35,508 nt of DNA from Polyangiaceae bacterium (GTDB taxonomy: Bacteria > Myxococcota_A > Polyangia > Polyangiales > Polyangiaceae). Location of the stretch: positions 1 to 35,508 of the forward strand of contig JAJDAH010000313.1 in the NCBI GenBank assembly GCA_029261965.1, given 5' to 3'. Shown in pieces: positions 14,303 through 21,418 of this stretch; position 1 is the first letter of the stretch, and every line of letters begins with the position of its first letter. The notes below the pieces were generated by a model, which saw nothing but the letters and a program-made list of their open reading frames with translations, ran no database searches and had not been told where the DNA came from. The translations under genes and the position numbers were made by a program.

Positions 14303-14574
14303 GGACTCCGAGTATAAGACCTCCGGCCTCTGCTCGGTCCGCTGCGCTTATCGATTCGCCACCGCGATCGGTTGCAATCGGCTCGTTTTCGAGCCCCCCG
14401 GCGGGTGATGGCTCGGGTCGATTGGACTCGCTGCCGTGGCGTGTTATTCGTCCCGGCACGCAGGCGTTCTGCCGAAGGCGGGAGCCCGACCAAACGAGCT
14501 TCCCCGGTCCACGCCTTATCGAAAGAGAGAACAAACAAAAACCATGTTCTCCGTTACCCGAAAGACGAGTTTCC
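14303..14574. other. Divergent intergenic region upstream of the HARE/Mrr-like gene
   Basis: These 272 bases separate two divergent starts. They hold a 6-bp hairpin with a TTTT loop (GGCTCG/CGAGCC, 14380-14395) and an A-rich, purine-rich stretch (about 14518-14542) that suggests an untranslated leader. No confident promoter could be assigned, and short open frames here have no convincing composition. Confidence 0.45.
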
Positions 14575-16245
14575 ATGACGTTCACAGAAGCGGCGGCGCA
14601 GGTGTTGCGCCTTGTCGGCAAGCCACTGCATTACAAGGAAATTACTGACGTAGCGATCGAGAAGAATCTCCTCAGCCACGTGGGCAAGAGCCCCGAGGTC
14701 ACCATGGGTGCGCGCCTCGCGGCGGTCGTCCAGAAGGGTGAGAAGGAGGGAGCGCTCGTCCGCGTCAAACCCGGGGTTTTTGCTCTCAAGGATTGGGACA
14801 AGAAGACCATCGAGAAGGGGCTGAAGGATCGCACGCCTGCCCTCGAGCGCATCGCGAAGAGCGAGGCCGAGAAAGAAGGCGAGCCGGAAGCGATCCCGGC
14901 GGCCGAGAGCAATGGCGCCGCTGCGGAAAGCAGCCAACCCGATCCCGACGAGCCCGAGCCGGAGCTCGACGAGCACGAAAAGAAACGTGCAGAGATTGCC
15001 GCGAGCGCGACGGCGATCTTCGAGGCTGAAGACGACGACGACGAGCCGATTCTCGGTGGCTCGGACGACGATGGCGACGAGGACACCGAGGACCGCGGCG
15101 ACGGAAGTCGGCGACGGCGACGGCGACGCCGCCGCGGTGGCAGCGGTCGTTCCGGGGGCGGGGGAGACGAGCTTCCGTCCTACACGGTTTCGGAGGCGCC
15201 AACGGAGCTCGGTGCCGACGTGCAGCGCGAAGGTCGCGAAAGCAGTCGTGACAGTCGTGACAGTCGTGACAGTCGTGACGGTCGTGACGGTCGGGACAAC
15301 GGTCGTGACGGACGGGACAACGGTCGTGACGGACGGGACAACGGTCGTGACGGACGGGACAACGGTCGTGACGGACGGGACAACGGTCGTGACGGACGGG
15401 ACCGTGACCGCGATCGCGATCGCGATCGCGACAATCGCGATGCCGGAGGTCCGCCGCTCGAATCCCTGGCGGGTCCGAACCTGGCCGACGCCATCGTCGG
15501 CCTCCTCGACCGCCGTGGTCAGCTCTCGGGCTTGCGCCAAGTCGCGGACCAGGCTTCGCGGCGCGGCCGTGTTTCGGGAGATCCGCAGTCCGTACAGGCG
15601 CTCATCGGCGCCGCCGTGCGCGCCGACAACTTGCGTCGCGACGCCCGAGGGGAACGACCTCGATTTCGCGTGGTCGGAGGTCGGGTCGGCCTGAGCGATG
15701 GCCTGCTGGATGGCGAAGCGCTCTCGTTGGAGCGCCAGATCGTCTCGAGCGCGCACAAGTACCGCGAGCTGGTCCGTCGGCAGCTGGTCAAGCGCTTTCA
15801 GGATCTTCCGGTTCGCGCGTTCGGTGAGCTCGTTCTGCTCTTGCTCGAGCGTCTTCACATGCGCGACGTCAAGGTGCTCAAACGCCCCGGGGCGCACGGC
15901 GCGGAGCTTCACTTGTCCGCCCTCATGGGGGGGCCGGCGCACGAAGTGCGAACGGCGATTCTCATTCGTCGAGACTCGCGAGACGTCGGTCGGGAAAGAG
16001 TTACCGAGCTTCGGGGCGCTCTTCACCACTACGATGGCGCCGTGGCAGGCTGCATCGCCACCGCCGGCCAGGTCCTCAGCGGCGCTCGCGAGGAAGCTAA
16101 CGCGAGCGGCGCCGCTCCAGTCACCCTCCTCGACGGTGCGACACTCGCCGCCCTTTGCGAGGAGCACGGAGTCGCCGTCAACCGAACGAGCGTTCTCTTG
16201 CCAGTCATCGACGCCGATCTCATGGAGTCCCTGCGTTCCGGCTGA
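14575..16245 (+). CDS. HARE-HTH protein with disordered RD-repeat linker and Mrr-like C-terminal domain
   Basis: This 556-aa protein starts at ATG 14575. Residues 1-75 match the HARE-HTH winged-helix domain (TFTEAAAQVLRLVGKPLHYK, then VKPGVFALKDW), found in RNA polymerase delta subunits and in restriction-endonuclease fusions. Residues 76-220 are acidic and disordered, ending in a run of nine arginines. Residues about 223-287 are SRD and GRDGRDN repeats. A helical domain follows (LADAIVGLLDRRGQLSGLRQ). The last 150 residues resemble Mrr: LLLLERLHMRDVKVLKRPGA, VTELRGALHHYDGAVAGCIA, REEANASGAAPVTLLDGATL and AALCEEHGVAV. The nuclease residues look lost: the usual D-G-G-I-D is GAHGAEL and the Q-x-K is near LIRR. 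I infer a DNA-binding, probably non-cutting protein. Confidence 0.8.
   Translation: MTFTEAAAQVLRLVGKPLHYKEITDVAIEKNLLSHVGKSPEVTMGARLAAVVQKGEKEGALVRVKPGVFALKDWDKKTIEKGLKDRTPALERIAKSEAEKEGEPEAIPAAESNGAAAESSQPDPDEPEPELDEHEKKRAEIAASATAIFEAEDDDDEPILGGSDDDGDEDTEDRGDGSRRRRRRRRRGGSGRSGGGGDELPSYTVSEAPTELGADVQREGRESSRDSRDSRDSRDGRDGRDNGRDGRDNGRDGRDNGRDGRDNGRDGRDNGRDGRDRDRDRDRDRDNRDAGGPPLESLAGPNLADAIVGLLDRRGQLSGLRQVADQASRRGRVSGDPQSVQALIGAAVRADNLRRDARGERPRFRVVGGRVGLSDGLLDGEALSLERQIVSSAHKYRELVRRQLVKRFQDLPVRAFGELVLLLLERLHMRDVKVLKRPGAHGAELHLSALMGGPAHEVRTAILIRRDSRDVGRERVTELRGALHHYDGAVAGCIATAGQVLSGAREEANASGAAPVTLLDGATLAALCEEHGVAVNRTSVLLPVIDADLMESLRSG
15244..15402 (+). repeat. In-frame coding tandem repeats (9-bp and 21-bp units)
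   Basis: Four perfect copies of AGTCGTGAC (Ser-Arg-Asp) run from 15244 to 15279. A variant 21-bp unit follows (15280-15300), then four perfect 21-bp units encoding GRDGRDN (15301-15384) and a partial fifth (15385-15402). A short GATCGC run continues to about 15432. Both unit lengths are multiples of three, so copy-number change would keep the frame. Confidence 0.95.
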
Positions 16246-17132
16246 TGCGCCTGGCGTCGTCAGTCGTTGCTGCCGTCGCGCTTCTGTGCGGCTGCTACCG
16301 GAACCCGCCGCCGTCGCAGTTCCCCACGGGGGATGCCGCCCTCGATCGCATGCACGAGACGTTCTCGTGCAGTCGTGGCATTCAGAGCGATGGCAAGGTC
16401 GACTACTTTGGTGACGAGGGACGTCTCAGGGGAAACGTGCTTTTCATCGTGATGCGGCCGGAGCAACTCCGGTTCGATGTCTTCAGCCCGTTCGGAATCA
16501 CTCTCTCGACCTTGACTTCCGACGGCGAGGCTTTCGCGCTCTTCGACCTCAAGAACAAGCAATTTCTGCACGGCCCGGCGAGCCAATGCAACGTCGCTCG
16601 CTTCACGGGTGTTCCCGTACCGCCGCACGTGCTCGTTCAGCTGCTCACCGGAGAGGCGCCGGTCTTGAAGCACGAACCTGGTGGCGCCGCCATCGCGTGG
16701 GAAAAGGGCCGCTACGTCGTCAGGATCGCGAGCCGGCATGGCGCCGAACAGAAGATCTCGCTCGAGCCCCACCCGAAAGATTGGAGCAAACCCTGGGCGG
16801 AACAGCGCGTCCGAGTGACCGAGGTCGAGGTGGTCCAGCACGGATATCGCCACTATCGCGCCGAGCTCACCGACCACCGCACGGCTTCGCGGGCCGTGGT
16901 CGACGAGGACGAGGACGACTTCGACGCGCCTCCGCCGCCGAGCGGCCCCGAATGCTCGGCGGAGATCCCGAGACGGATGCGCATCGAAATGCCCGAAGTC
17001 GGCCGCGACGTGATTTTCCGCCACGACAAGGTGTTTCACAATCCCCCGCTCGACGTGGAGACGTTCCGCCAGAACATTCCGGGCGGCGTCGAAGTTCGCC
17101 GGTCGGAATGTCGCGCGGTGCCCGCACGTTGA
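16245..17132 (+). CDS. Lipoprotein, LolB/DUF4292-like
   Basis: This 295-aa protein starts at ATG 16245, sharing one base with the upstream stop (TGATG), so translation is coupled. The N-terminus MRLASSVVAAVALLCGC is a type II signal with cysteine 17 as the lipidation site. The next 130 residues have the strand pattern of LolA/LolB-fold DUF4292 proteins: SDGKVDYFGDEGRLRGNVLF, then PEQLRFDVFSPFGITLSTLT and GEAFALFDLKNKQFLHGPAS. These proteins bind lipid or lipoprotein acyl chains at the outer membrane. The C-terminal third contains an acidic linker (VVDEDEDDFDAPPPP) and a tail with unassigned function. A role in lipoprotein localisation is inferred from the fold only. Confidence 0.75.
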   Translation: MRLASSVVAAVALLCGCYRNPPPSQFPTGDAALDRMHETFSCSRGIQSDGKVDYFGDEGRLRGNVLFIVMRPEQLRFDVFSPFGITLSTLTSDGEAFALFDLKNKQFLHGPASQCNVARFTGVPVPPHVLVQLLTGEAPVLKHEPGGAAIAWEKGRYVVRIASRHGAEQKISLEPHPKDWSKPWAEQRVRVTEVEVVQHGYRHYRAELTDHRTASRAVVDEDEDDFDAPPPPSGPECSAEIPRRMRIEMPEVGRDVIFRHDKVFHNPPLDVETFRQNIPGGVEVRRSECRAVPAR

Positions 17133-17179: not shown

Positions 17180-18289
17180 ATGGCGGCCAAAAAGACTCGC
17201 AAGAAGAAGACGAAGAAGGTTTCCCGCGTCGCGCCCAAGCCCAAGTCGGACAAGGGCGAGCGCGTCGAAGCCAAACCGTCCTCGAAACGAGGCGCTGGTG
17301 GGTTCCAGCCCCAGTCATCCGCAGAGATGCCGCGTTTCGGGGGCATCCCGACGTTTCTGCGGCTGCCGATCCACGACCCGCGCGCGTCGTCCGTGGACGT
17401 AGTGCTCGTCGGCTGTCCCTACGACGGTGGCACGTGTTACCGCCCCGGCGCCAGATTCGGGCCCCGAGCCGTGCGCGAAGCGTCTGCGCTCGGCAAACGA
17501 TTCTCTGCGGCCCTCGGCATCGACATCTACGACGAGCTGCGCATCGCCGATGGTGGAGACATTCTCATGTCGCCGCACGACATGAGCCACGCGCTGTCGG
17601 CGGTGAGCTCCCGAGCCGAACAGTTGGCGCGTGGCGGCATCATCGGCGGCTTCGTCGGGGGGGATCAGACGATCACCCTGGGTGCGCTCCGGGGCGTGGC
17701 GCGAGCCAAGCTCAAGAGCGCGGGCCTGATCCACATCGATTCACATTGCAACACGTCTCCACCGGCGTGGGGCACCGACATTCACCACGGAAGCGCGATT
17801 CGGGTGGCGCTCGAAGAACGACTCATCCGCGCGGATCGAGTCATGCAGATTGGCGTGCGCGGACCCTACACGACGCACGAGGAGCCAGCGTTCTCCTTGG
17901 CCAAAGGCTTCGAGGTCGTCGACGTCGACTCGGTCAAGTGGGACCTCTACTCGGTCATCAGCGAGGTGCGGAAGCTGGTTCGCCACGGGCCCGTTTACTT
18001 GAGCGTCGACCTGTCCGCGCTCGATCCCGCGTACGCACCCGGAGTGAGCTTCCCCTCCGCCGGCGGCATGAGCACCTGGGAGCTACAGCAAATCCTTCGC
18101 TCGATGGTCGGCGCCGAAATCGTCGGCTTCGACGTCGTGGAGATGGTCCCGGCGTACGACCATGCCGGCATCACGGCCCTCGCGGCGGCGTCGGTGCTCC
18201 AAGAGATCCTGAGCGCCATCGCCGACACGAGACGAAGCGTTCGTCCCGCGCAGAGCTCGAAGACTAGGGGTGGTCGGCTGAGCCCGTGA
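17180..18289 (+). CDS. Agmatinase/arginase-family (ureohydrolase) protein with degenerate metal site
   Basis: This 369-aa protein starts at ATG 17180. Residues 1-45 are a Lys/Arg-rich tail absent from ordinary agmatinases. From residue 70 it follows the ureohydrolase fold closely: VGCPYDGGTCYRPGARFGPR, IGGFVGGDQTITLGALRG, LIHIDSHCNTSPPAWG, VYLSVDLSALDPAYAPG and GFDVVEMVPAYDHAGITA. Active enzymes bind two Mn/Ni ions with H, D-x-H-x-D and D-x-D. Here the first histidine is Q163, the third aspartate is N191 (D187 and H189 kept), and the last aspartate is S279 (D277 kept). Three of six ligands are therefore replaced. Either it is a non-hydrolytic paralogue or it binds one metal differently. It converges on the GDPD gene. 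Confidence 0.88.
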   Translation: MAAKKTRKKKTKKVSRVAPKPKSDKGERVEAKPSSKRGAGGFQPQSSAEMPRFGGIPTFLRLPIHDPRASSVDVVLVGCPYDGGTCYRPGARFGPRAVREASALGKRFSAALGIDIYDELRIADGGDILMSPHDMSHALSAVSSRAEQLARGGIIGGFVGGDQTITLGALRGVARAKLKSAGLIHIDSHCNTSPPAWGTDIHHGSAIRVALEERLIRADRVMQIGVRGPYTTHEEPAFSLAKGFEVVDVDSVKWDLYSVISEVRKLVRHGPVYLSVDLSALDPAYAPGVSFPSAGGMSTWELQQILRSMVGAEIVGFDVVEMVPAYDHAGITALAAASVLQEILSAIADTRRSVRPAQSSKTRGGRLSP

Positions 18290-18310: not shown

Positions 18311-19060
18311 CTAATCGAGGGCGTCGAGCACCAACGAAGGGTCGTCGCTGATGAGCGAATCGACGCCGAGGGCGGCGAGATCGCGGGCTTCGGTGGGGTC
18401 GTTGACGGTCCAAACGTTGACCATCGCGCCGGAGCTCTTCCACCGGCGAACCTGGTCCGGTGTGCACAACAGGCGCTCTGGGTGAACGGCGGTCGCGCCG
18501 AGCCAACGATGGCCCGGCGCGGTCTTGAGCACGCGTTGCGATCGGTGCACGAGCCAGCCCACGGGAACCTTCGGCACGAGCCGTCGGTGGAGTGCGACGA
18601 GTCGTGCGTCGAAGGAGGAAATCAAGACGTGCCGTTCGGCGTGGGGCATGCCCCCGACGAGCGCCGCCACGCGGCGGGTCAACCGTACCGGGTGCGAAAC
18701 GTCGCTCTTGATTTCGACGTTGATTCGCGTGCGGACTTCGCGAGCCCAAGACAGAACGGTCGTCAGCCGTGGCACACGTTCACCTTCGCCGACGTCGATG
18801 GCGTCGAGCGCCCGGCGGTCGAGGCTCTCGGCCCCACGAGAATCGGCGCCACCGGTCACTCGTTCGAGGGTCGCGTCGTGTAGCACGATGACCTCTCCAG
18901 CGCTGTCGAGGCGCACGTCGAGCTCGACGCCGTCGGCACCATCGTGGAGGGCGCAACGAAACGCCGCCATCGTGTTTTCTGGTGCTCGGGAGCGCGCTCC
19001 GCGATGGCCGAGAACGAGCGGGCGCCGACCATCTGGGCGGCGCCAGCGCGAGTGGCTCAA
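18311..19060 (-). CDS. Glycerophosphodiester phosphodiesterase family protein
   Basis: This 249-aa protein starts at TTG 19060, which overlaps the upstream stop as TTGA; there is no ATG or GTG in frame between that stop and the first motif. The GDPD signature is complete: LGHRGARSRAPENTMAAF, GADGVELDVRLDSAGEVIVL with the catalytic HD after it, and a central INVEIKSD strand. The end (VNVWTVNDPTEARDLAALGV, DSLISDDP) is the usual TIM-barrel closing. It would cleave glycerophosphodiesters to glycerol-3-phosphate and an alcohol. No signal peptide is seen, so it should be cytosolic. It is translationally coupled to the DHH gene. Confidence 0.9.
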   Translation of the reverse strand: MSHSRWRRPDGRRPLVLGHRGARSRAPENTMAAFRCALHDGADGVELDVRLDSAGEVIVLHDATLERVTGGADSRGAESLDRRALDAIDVGEGERVPRLTTVLSWAREVRTRINVEIKSDVSHPVRLTRRVAALVGGMPHAERHVLISSFDARLVALHRRLVPKVPVGWLVHRSQRVLKTAPGHRWLGATAVHPERLLCTPDQVRRWKSSGAMVNVWTVNDPTEARDLAALGVDSLISDDPSLVLDALD

Positions 19061-20016
19061 CCCCCGAGCTCCCGGGCGATTCCGTCGGCAACGCTGATGG
19101 CTTTTTCGAGCTCTTTGAGCGGGTAGGCGATTCCCCCGACGGCGGCGTGGCCGCCGCCGCCGTAGCGCTTGCAAATGGCGCTGATGTCCGTGTCGAGCGG
19201 GTGACCCGACCACGGATTGTACCCAACCGAAATCTTCGCGCCGCTCGACATGCGGCCGACGATGACCGAGTACGTGCTCTTCGGATAAAGCGCGTAGGTC
19301 ACGAATTTGCCGACGGTTTCTGCGACGGCGTCGGTCATGTCGACGTACACCACCCGTCCTCTCTCGACGGCGCATTCACGCACCCTCTCGATGAATCTCG
19401 CGTGCTTCTTCCCGAGCGGCTTGAAGCGAGACTCGATGAGGTCCGATGCGGCGATCTCTCTCAGCGGTTTCTCGTCGAGGTCGGCCACGAGTTGCTCGAG
19501 GAATCGCCCATGGCCGTGCTGCTCCACCACGCTGACCATACGCATGATGGGGTTTTTTCGATCGATCGCTTCTTCCGCGCTCGCGAAAGCGGCAGAGTCC
19601 ACGAGATCGGCCCAATCGATCAGCTCCTCGAGGCCCGCGGTCTCGAGATCGAAGTGCTCTCGTCCGATGTCGGCGATGAGCTTCGTGCAGGAGGTGTAGC
19701 CAGCGTCGAAAAAGAAACGGCCGCTATCGATTCGCTCGTGAAAATGCGCGTGATCCTCTTCGGTCAAAAAGGCCGTCTTGTGGTGATCGAAATACCAAGT
19801 GAGCGACGGTCCGGCGAAGTAGCGGTAGTCGAGGATGGCGTTGATTTCGCCACTGAGCATCGAAGCGTCGGGTTTGTGTTGCCCAGGGCCGTAGCCGCAC
19901 GCTCTGTAGCTGAGCTCGACCGAGGGGCCTTCGATGTGCCGAAGTAGCCGCGAAAAAAGCACGGCACTCGCCATGCCATCGAAGCAATGGCCGTGGGTGG
20001 CTACTACGGCGCGCAT
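19057..20016 (-). CDS. DHH-family phosphoesterase
   Basis: This 319-aa protein starts at ATG 20016. The N-terminal domain begins VVATHGHCFDGMASAVLF, the family's first metal motif, and has the name-giving YFDHHKTAF. The C-terminal DHHA1 domain ends with KRYGGGGHAAVGGIAYP, a phosphate/substrate-binding glycine loop. Such proteins hydrolyse phosphoanhydride or phosphodiester bonds (nanoRNA, cyclic dinucleotides, pAp); the exact substrate cannot be read here. The length matches stand-alone DHH-DHHA1 enzymes. Its stop overlaps the GDPD start, so both phosphodiesterases are probably made from one transcript. Confidence 0.88.
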   Translation of the reverse strand: MRAVVATHGHCFDGMASAVLFSRLLRHIEGPSVELSYRACGYGPGQHKPDASMLSGEINAILDYRYFAGPSLTWYFDHHKTAFLTEEDHAHFHERIDSGRFFFDAGYTSCTKLIADIGREHFDLETAGLEELIDWADLVDSAAFASAEEAIDRKNPIMRMVSVVEQHGHGRFLEQLVADLDEKPLREIAASDLIESRFKPLGKKHARFIERVRECAVERGRVVYVDMTDAVAETVGKFVTYALYPKSTYSVIVGRMSSGAKISVGYNPWSGHPLDTDISAICKRYGGGGHAAVGGIAYPLKELEKAISVADGIARELGG

Positions 20017-20120: not shown

Positions 20121-20807
20121 ATGATGAACGACACGGTGAAGCGATACACGATGGTGGCGATCACGGGTTTTTTGGTCGCTTGCGGCGGCGGGCGGGATCA
20201 ACCCCCGGACAGCGGTTTCGAGGCTGGCCAGACGGCGAGTCCCTATCCATCGCCAACGGCTTCCACCGCGCCCGCGCCGAGCACGCCACCCACGGCGACC
20301 CCCCCTGGGGCAGGCGGGTTCCCGGCCATTGGCGCCATCCTGTCCGATCCCGAAGGGCTGCAGAGGATTCTCTCCGGAGCCATGGCCGCAGCCCACGCGA
20401 CGGTCGGCCCGGTCGTCGGCGGCGACCAGGCGGTCTTGAAAGCCGGGATCGACGCGTCGGCGGCGCACCACGCCCAAGGCATGAAACCCGAGGGACAGCT
20501 CATGAGCGCCCAGCTCAGCCAAGGTGGGCACGCCGAAGCGAGCTTGATGCTTCAGCCGAACGCCTGCTACACGCTAGTCGGGTTTGGTGGTTTGGGTGTC
20601 ATGAAGTTTCAGGTCAATGTGCTCACGGCGCCGCCGCTGCCGCCCCAGGTCATCGCTCAGAGCGGCGGCGATGGGGTCACCCCGGTGGTAGGTTCAGCCG
20701 GCAATTGCCTTCGAAGCCCAGTGCCGGGTGCACCGTTCCCCGTAAAGGTCGACATGCACGTCCCCGAGGGTCAGGGCATCGTCGGAGTTCAAGCGTATAG
20801 GAAGTGA
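20121..20807 (+). CDS. Proline-rich lipoprotein, first of a paralogous pair
   Basis: This 228-aa protein starts at ATG 20121 (or ATG 20124), with GGAGAGGA just upstream. The signal ends in the lipobox LVAC (cysteine 21), so it is an envelope lipoprotein. Residues 25-65 are a Pro/Thr/Ser spacer. The remaining part contains GMKPEGQLMSAQLSQGGHAE and SLMLQPNACYTLVGFGGLGV, and ends with PVKVDMHVPEGQGIVGVQAY. The same order of motifs occurs in the next gene, so the two are paralogues. Two further cysteines (CYTLVGF and NCLRSP) could form a disulfide. The function is unknown. Confidence 0.82.
   Translation: MMNDTVKRYTMVAITGFLVACGGGRDQPPDSGFEAGQTASPYPSPTASTAPAPSTPPTATPPGAGGFPAIGAILSDPEGLQRILSGAMAAAHATVGPVVGGDQAVLKAGIDASAAHHAQGMKPEGQLMSAQLSQGGHAEASLMLQPNACYTLVGFGGLGVMKFQVNVLTAPPLPPQVIAQSGGDGVTPVVGSAGNCLRSPVPGAPFPVKVDMHVPEGQGIVGVQAYRK
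20799..20802 (+). promoter_or_regulatory. Shine-Dalgarno deciding the start of the second lipoprotein
   Basis: AGGA is seven bases before ATG 20810 but only one base before GTG 20804, which overlaps the upstream stop. ATG 20810 is therefore the better start. Confidence 0.6.
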
Positions 20808-20809
20808 CG

Positions 20810-21418
20810 ATGGTCGGTAGAACGCAGACAGTCGGTCGAACAGTGGCTCTCTTGACGGTGGTGATCGGTGCGGGGCTCGTCCTCGCGCCGGGCTGCAAGA
20901 AGGAAGAGCCCATCAAGTACCCCGAGCCCACAGCTCCGCCGCCACCGCCGCCTCCGCCCCCACCGCCCCCGGAGGACGCCGCCCCGCCGCCCATGGAGAC
21001 GGGCCCGGCGGGGCTGTCGACCGAGGTCGAGACGATGCTGATGGACGCCATCACCAACATCGCCCGCAAGAAAGCCAAGGGGATGAAAAAGGAGGGCGAC
21101 TTCATTCGAGGCGGCATTGCCGAGGGCGATACCCTCGAGGCGCAGATGATGCTCAACCCGAGCAAGTGCTACGCCGTGATCGGCATGGGTGGGCCGGTCG
21201 TGACCGAGCTCGATCTCGAGATACATGCGTCGAGCCCGCTGCCGGTCCCGATCCCGGGCATGCAAGGGCTCAAAGTTGCGGTGGACACGGGCCAGGGGCC
21301 CGAGGCAGCAATCAGCCCGTGTTGGAAGAACGCCACGCCCTTTCCGATCCCCGCCAAGATCATTGTGCGCGCCACCAAAGGCACGGGGCCCGTGGGCGCG
21401 CAGGTCTACGTCAAATAA
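20810..21418 (+). CDS. Proline-rich lipoprotein, second of a paralogous pair
   Basis: This 202-aa protein starts at ATG 20810, two bases after the upstream stop. The signal VALLTVVIGAGLVLAPGC ends in a lipobox. A run of twelve prolines follows the short KKEEPIKYPEP segment. The mature domain repeats the pattern of its neighbour: GMKKEGDFIRGGIAEGDTLE, AQMMLNPSKCYAVIGMGGPV, and the end PIPAKIIVRATKGTGPVGAQ. The matching cysteine pair (KCYAVIG and SPCWKN) is conserved. It probably arose by tandem duplication, with the upstream copy more diverged in the spacer. No catalytic motif is seen. An A-rich end (AAATAAAAAG) is not a terminator. Confidence 0.82.
   Translation: MVGRTQTVGRTVALLTVVIGAGLVLAPGCKKEEPIKYPEPTAPPPPPPPPPPPPEDAAPPPMETGPAGLSTEVETMLMDAITNIARKKAKGMKKEGDFIRGGIAEGDTLEAQMMLNPSKCYAVIGMGGPVVTELDLEIHASSPLPVPIPGMQGLKVAVDTGQGPEAAISPCWKNATPFPIPAKIIVRATKGTGPVGAQVYVK

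Follow-up and report, generated by a model that had tools for sequence, protein, structure and literature searches.

The window, by which we mean the whole 35,508-nt stretch of contig JAJDAH010000313.1 analyzed here, carries a ureohydrolase-like gene with an ATG start codon; its coordinates and those of the residues and neighboring genes discussed below are collected in Table 1. The gene order around it runs alaS, murB, a HARE-HTH/Mrr_cat gene, a lipoprotein gene, the ureohydrolase gene, a GDPD gene, a DHH-like gene (a sub-threshold match), dprA and gidA. The lipoprotein is possibly a LolB-like component of this group, and the HARE-HTH/Mrr_cat gene adjoins it in most neighborhoods examined. 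The HARE-HTH/Mrr_cat protein has its HARE-HTH domain at the N-terminus and its Mrr_cat nuclease-like domain at the C-terminus, separated by a long, charged stretch of low complexity; within its gene, a tandem repeat at 15243-15402 (period 21, 6 copies, 99% match, preceded by period-9 units) encodes a (DGRDNGR)n-like charged linker between the two domains. Further downstream, two adjoining ORFs at 20121-21418 match the same place in several relatives, which suggests a tandem duplication.

Table 1. Features of the pseudo-ureohydrolase locus, in positions of the window
Feature	Positions	Strand	Remarks and evidence
HARE-HTH + Mrr_cat protein	14557..16245	+	probably the same operon, judging from strand and spacing
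Lipoprotein gene, upstream synteny anchor	16245..17132	+	weak LolB similarity (E=0.033, below cut-off)
Pseudo-ureohydrolase gene	17180..18289	+	369 aa, arginase fold, PF00491
Lys/Arg-rich N-terminal extension, residues 1-49	17180..17326	+	net +12, predicted disordered (pLDDT about 40-50)
Q163 (CAG), metal-A His position (E. coli agmatinase H126)	17666..17668	+	codon check, alignment
D187-S-H189-C-N191	17738..17752	+	bridging Asp and metal-B His retained; Asn in place of the metal-A Asp (SpeB D153)
H203, catalytic/substrate His equivalent (SpeB H163)	17786..17788	+	kept in the 7 less decayed members
D277-L-S279	18008..18016	+	bridging Asp kept; metal-B Asp replaced by Ser (Thr/Ala/Gly/Cys in relatives)
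E321, SpeB E274 equivalent	18140..18142	+	kept across the whole clade
Clade-specific conserved basic C-terminal tail (AIADTRRSVRPAQSSKTRGGRLSP)	18215..18286	+	conservation, synonymous/replacement comparison
GDPD phosphodiesterase ORF, downstream synteny anchor	18311..19375	-	profile match, synteny

Metal-ligand positions in the encoded arginase domain

The encoded protein matches the Arginase profile PF00491 at 236.7 bits (E=4.7e-70, against a cut-off of 22 bits) over profile positions 2-277 of 280, and scores below the curated cut-offs of two agmatinase models (168.1 versus 174.3 bits for TIGR01230, 224.2 versus 302 bits for NF002564). Alignment to 3nio, 1gq6 and 3nip places GGDQ against GGDH, DSHCN against DAHxD and VDLS against [FV]DID, and the six ligand columns read Q163, D187, H189, N191, D277 and S279, against H, D, H, D, D and D in active enzymes. 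The preliminary description had named exactly these three replacements and the retention of D187, H189 and D277, and it was right to the codon: Q163 is CAG, N191 is AAC (17750-17752) and S279 is TCC (18014-18016), with GAT, CAT and GAC for the three retained residues. In E. coli agmatinase (SpeB) the metal ligands are H126, D149, H151, D153, D230 and D232, and H163 has the catalytic/substrate His role; in ureohydrolases the two-metal cluster activates water (PMC8049259). With both the His and the Asp of metal A gone, along with one Asp of metal B, a two-metal cluster cannot be held, which makes ordinary ureohydrolase activity very unlikely; judging from these residues, we infer that the window protein has most likely lost it.

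Structure prediction, proposed as a check in the preliminary description, returned an intact arginase fold: the AlphaFold2 model of the window protein has a mean pLDDT of 86.7 and a pTM of 0.82, with best PDB matches at Z about 44, and that of a fully decayed relative (L065, described below) has a pLDDT of 88.7 and a pTM of 0.88, the input alignments of both containing canonical relatives, so that the models indicate fold compatibility rather than proof. By fold and descent, then, the protein belongs among the ureohydrolases/arginases, with a whole-domain PF00491 match and an arginase-fold model. As a binuclear metalloenzyme it does not, given ligand columns of Q/D/H/N/D/S and three to four replaced ligands in the other members of its clade.

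A single clade at one chromosomal address

The window protein and nine relatives from the same family, all encoded at the same chromosomal address, form a clade in which every member (10/10) has lost three or four of the six ligands. The pattern Q..D.H.N..D.[T/A] is common to six of the nine relatives, reading QDHNDT in G032/L012, which is 62% identical to the window protein, and QDHNDA in G020/L014, G012/L015, G116/L063, G117/L062 and G112 (same contig as L031). The other three members show different losses, with QDFDDC in G127/L067, RGHGDG in G150/L065 and RAHGDG in G151/L066; the latter two lack the AWG..HHGS active-site loop, and their pocket is eroded (GGDR; I/L-G/A-AHPGAS). The lineages thus display stages of active-site loss, from HDHDDD through QDHND[AST] to QDFDDC and R[GA]HGDG. 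Since the pattern recurs in independently assembled relatives, chance and sequencing error are excluded.

In a tree built without the ligand columns, all ten proteins fell into one group (support 100/100) whose sister group consists of 15 canonical (HDHDDD) sequences belonging to other families in the same order, and G127, G150 and G151 clustered inside the clade (support 100/96). The simplest reading of these sequences would be one origin of ligand loss, with further change later in one branch. The Q/N/S clade for which the preliminary description proposed to look was borne out as to its single, fully supported grouping and not as to the letters, as the last position is S, T or A and three members depart from the pattern altogether. 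Of the two observations that the preliminary description had named as refuting it, neither turned up: we found no homologue known to be active that carries Q/N/S, and no close relative has the full ligand set, which occurs only in sister families at greater distance. Within the window's family, G122, G128 and a second G127 copy gave more distant arginase-family matches with canonical HDHDDD. Outside the family, no clade member was recognized at E<=1e-75 in samples of 193 genomes from the class and 141 from the phylum, where all matches whose ligands were read were canonical, two weak phylum matches (G386 and G407) having been left unread.

In sister families (L094, L095 and L096) a canonical HDHDDD ureohydrolase lies directly behind the same lipoprotein gene, which makes the active and inactive versions positional orthologues and shows that an active enzyme was converted in place. 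Of 108 genomes in the window's family, 104 carry the lipoprotein gene and only 10 the pseudo-ureohydrolase; in several family genomes (e.g. G118, G148 and G154) the lipoprotein gene is followed directly by GDPD with no detectable ureohydrolase remnant. At the level of the family, the role is dispensable.

Constraint on the gene, the pocket and the terminal tails

We estimated dN/dS by the Nei-Gojobori method for close pairs. Values for QDHNDA pairs were 0.024, 0.065, 0.063 and 0.132, that for the fully decayed G150/G151 pair (RGHGDG/RAHGDG) was 0.169, and the window protein gave 0.27 with its nearest relative, G032 (L012), at a dS near 1; for comparison, canonical pairs ranged from 0.10 to 0.30 and neighboring genes from 0.06 to 0.29. 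The pseudo-ureohydrolase gene is under purifying selection, the most decayed lineage included. The proposal that selection for a new role, rather than decay, explains the replacements is supported by this result, by the monophyly of the clade, its fixed locus and the intact predicted fold. The narrower idea that the exact altered ligand set is the selected feature was not supported: S, T and A are interchangeable at the last position, the set differs in three members that nevertheless keep the gene, and in two of those three the whole pocket is eroded.

Constraint within the protein has shifted. Outside the pocket, mean column identity is nearly the same in the clade and the canonical orthologues (0.646 versus 0.650), whereas in the pocket loops it is 0.638 versus 0.814; when the pocket mask was shifted circularly, 9 of 271 shifts gave an equally strong contrast, the pocket regions having been picked by us from motif positions and the contrast leaning on G127, G150 and G151, the members that diverge most. 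In the other seven, the pocket stands at 0.765 and the rest at 0.712, and in these proteins, which keep D187, H189, D277, H203 and E321, the pocket may still do something.

The unusual basic N-terminal tail, first put at about 45 residues, is real and slightly longer (Table 1). All 10 members carry a basic, poorly aligning extension of 35-76 aa, depending on start choice, with a net charge of +8 to +15, whereas in syntenic canonical orthologues, if the most domain-proximal start is used, 9-28 aa with a net charge of -3 to +4 precede the same point; longer alternative starts exist in a few of them. M50 is a possible tail-less start in the window protein, and most relatives have no start at that position; dN/dS of the extension in five pairs was 0.10-0.54, which suggests that it is probably translated and loosely constrained. 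The N-termini of L065 and L066 (MARRGRPGAR and MVRRGRPSAR) contain an AT-hook-like RGRP core, which may be due to chance.

A second, C-terminal tail, which went unmentioned in the preliminary description, has the motif ADTRRSARPAPS..RGGRxSA. Its pairwise identity is 81% in the clade versus 36% at the same columns in canonical orthologues, a conservation equaled by only 6 of 251 same-length windows inside the clade domain, and in genus g13 its last 24 codons show 38-58% synonymous-site differences with 0 replacement changes. By sequence conservation, this tail is the best-conserved new feature of the protein, now ahead of the former active site. A whole-genome search found no second copy of its DTRRS[AV]RPA motif in the window's genome, and no shared docking motif was found.

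Competing readings and comparison with known systems

Plain pseudogenization or faulty assembly might account for a gene that is missing from most of the family, often with the lipoprotein gene then directly followed by GDPD, and whose ligand loss is more advanced in one sub-lineage. We consider this the least probable account, given that the frame is open in all 10 genomes, that dN/dS lies well below 1, that the g13 tail shows no replacements and that the loss has a single origin; recent decay and sequencing error were rejected on the single clade, the dN/dS values and the independent assemblies. Only slightly less improbable is a helper role like that of MetCb in metformin hydrolase, in which the protein, itself inactive, would switch on a catalytic ureohydrolase (MetCa in that system). 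In proteins of the MetCb type, 3-5 of the 6 ligands are mutated and extended N- and C-termini are used at the interface (PMC11271267), and the clade likewise has three to four ligands lost in all ten members; a co-encoded catalytic arginase-fold partner, however, was not found. The window's genome (9.59 Mb, 96.4% complete) contains a single PF00491 protein, and another is absent from eight of the ten clade genomes including this one, seven of those eight being at least 90% complete; the exceptions, G032 and G127, encode a second PF00491 protein elsewhere in the genome. In addition, no nickel-chaperone genes were recognized nearby and identity to metformin hydrolase is only 21-22%. A MetCaCb-type partnership was thus largely rejected as far as ureohydrolase partners are concerned, on the eight of ten clade genomes that have no second ureohydrolase.

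Two further readings leave a role to the old pocket. The protein could be a one-metal enzyme, with D187, H189 and D277 forming a mononuclear, HDAC-like site at which a new substrate is hydrolyzed or deacetylated: the retained D-H-D triad falls exactly at the metal-B site, H203 and E321 in the second shell persist in the seven QDHND members, and the Mn2+B site of arginases is the conserved counterpart of the Zn2+ site of HDACs (PMC5454378). The triad is nevertheless kept in only 7 of 10 members and broken in three (H189F; D187G or D187A) that are still under selection where this could be tested, inspection revealed no equivalent of the HDAC active-site His pair, and comparison with PF00850 proteins from the same group gave no usable profile alignment; we regard this reading as rather unlikely. 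Unlikely too, by a shade less, is that the old pocket works without metal to sense or bind a polyamine or small guanidino compound, which would fit the moderate pocket-loop conservation in the seven less decayed members and the uncharged Q and N replacements, by which hydrogen bonding is preserved. Here the pocket is eroded in G150 and G151 and altered in G127, yet the gene is retained, and the conserved neighbors are largely housekeeping genes, no regulator or transporter being recognized among them. Both the one-metal HDAC-like reading and the sensor reading could apply only to the seven less decayed members. Across the clade, the gene, fold and C-terminal tail are kept even without D187 and H203, and a clade-wide function can hardly be metal chemistry.

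We favor conversion, in place, of an active ureohydrolase into a non-catalytic, tail-bearing oligomeric scaffold and putative binder, with a probability of roughly 0.55. Synteny, tree and alignment show that the ancestor of these myxobacterial families had an active two-metal ureohydrolase behind the lipoprotein gene, and that its ligands were lost in place in one family. The resulting pseudo-ureohydrolase has been inherited vertically; it retained the fold and gained two basic tails, with guanidino hydrolysis most likely gone. The arginase-fold core is a hexamer in many relatives, and by analogy with them the pseudo-ureohydrolase would be oligomeric as well. Its core could display the disordered Lys/Arg-rich N-terminal tails together with a sequence-specific basic C-terminal tail, and these tails, multiplied by oligomerization, might bind a polyanion (DNA, RNA or polyphosphate) or a protein partner multivalently. 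The nearby HARE-HTH/Mrr_cat gene is a weak hint at nucleic acids. Counting against the scaffold are the fairly well-conserved pocket of the seven less decayed members, the absence of the gene from most of the family, and the fact that basic tail composition can arise by drift in GC-rich genomes. More tentative, and in our judgment somewhat doubtful, is the fuller proposal of a fixed-position conversion into a partner-free scaffold, for instance a candidate organizer of nucleic acids or other polyanions, with graded loss of the site and a highly constrained tail.

Arginase-fold pseudoenzymes in general are an already known kind. To our knowledge few have been described, and the bacterial example that is best understood depends on an active sister subunit to work. 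In a literature search of partial coverage, we found no paper on a myxobacterial pseudo-ureohydrolase, nor a clade combining its own conserved tails, no sister enzyme, positional orthology and graded loss. The closest solved relatives, guanidinobutyrase (3nio), guanidinopropionase (3nip) and proclavaminate amidinohydrolase (1gq6), are all PF00491 proteins that resemble the window protein in fold, in overall length and in the sequence around most motifs, at about 37% identity and Z 34-44, but they have all six ligands and neither a basic N-terminal extension nor a conserved C-terminal tail. We know of no tail or synteny resemblance between the clade and the Trypanosoma brucei arginase-like protein (Hai et al. 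2015, cited in PMC11271267), which, unlike the myxobacterial clade, is eukaryotic and of the arginase branch, and which reportedly evolved with an arginase fold but without a binuclear metal cluster.

As for HDACs and acetylpolyamine amidohydrolases (PF00850), the leftover D-H-D triad of the window protein would lie where HDACs bind one zinc, an equivalence of position taken from PMC5454378; our profile comparison detected no sequence similarity, and the triad is not clade-wide. MetCb/MfmB (PMC11271267) is likewise a pseudoenzyme of the arginase fold that has extended termini and has lost several of its metal ligands; it works with a dedicated, active partner of the same fold and with nickel chaperones, whereas genomes with the pseudo-ureohydrolase usually encode no other ureohydrolase. 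The clade described here usually has no sister enzyme, sits at a locus whose orthologues in related families encode active versions, and has lost the site by degrees. It offers a clean natural series for following the change from enzyme to binding protein and for seeing which newly gained parts selection then protects.
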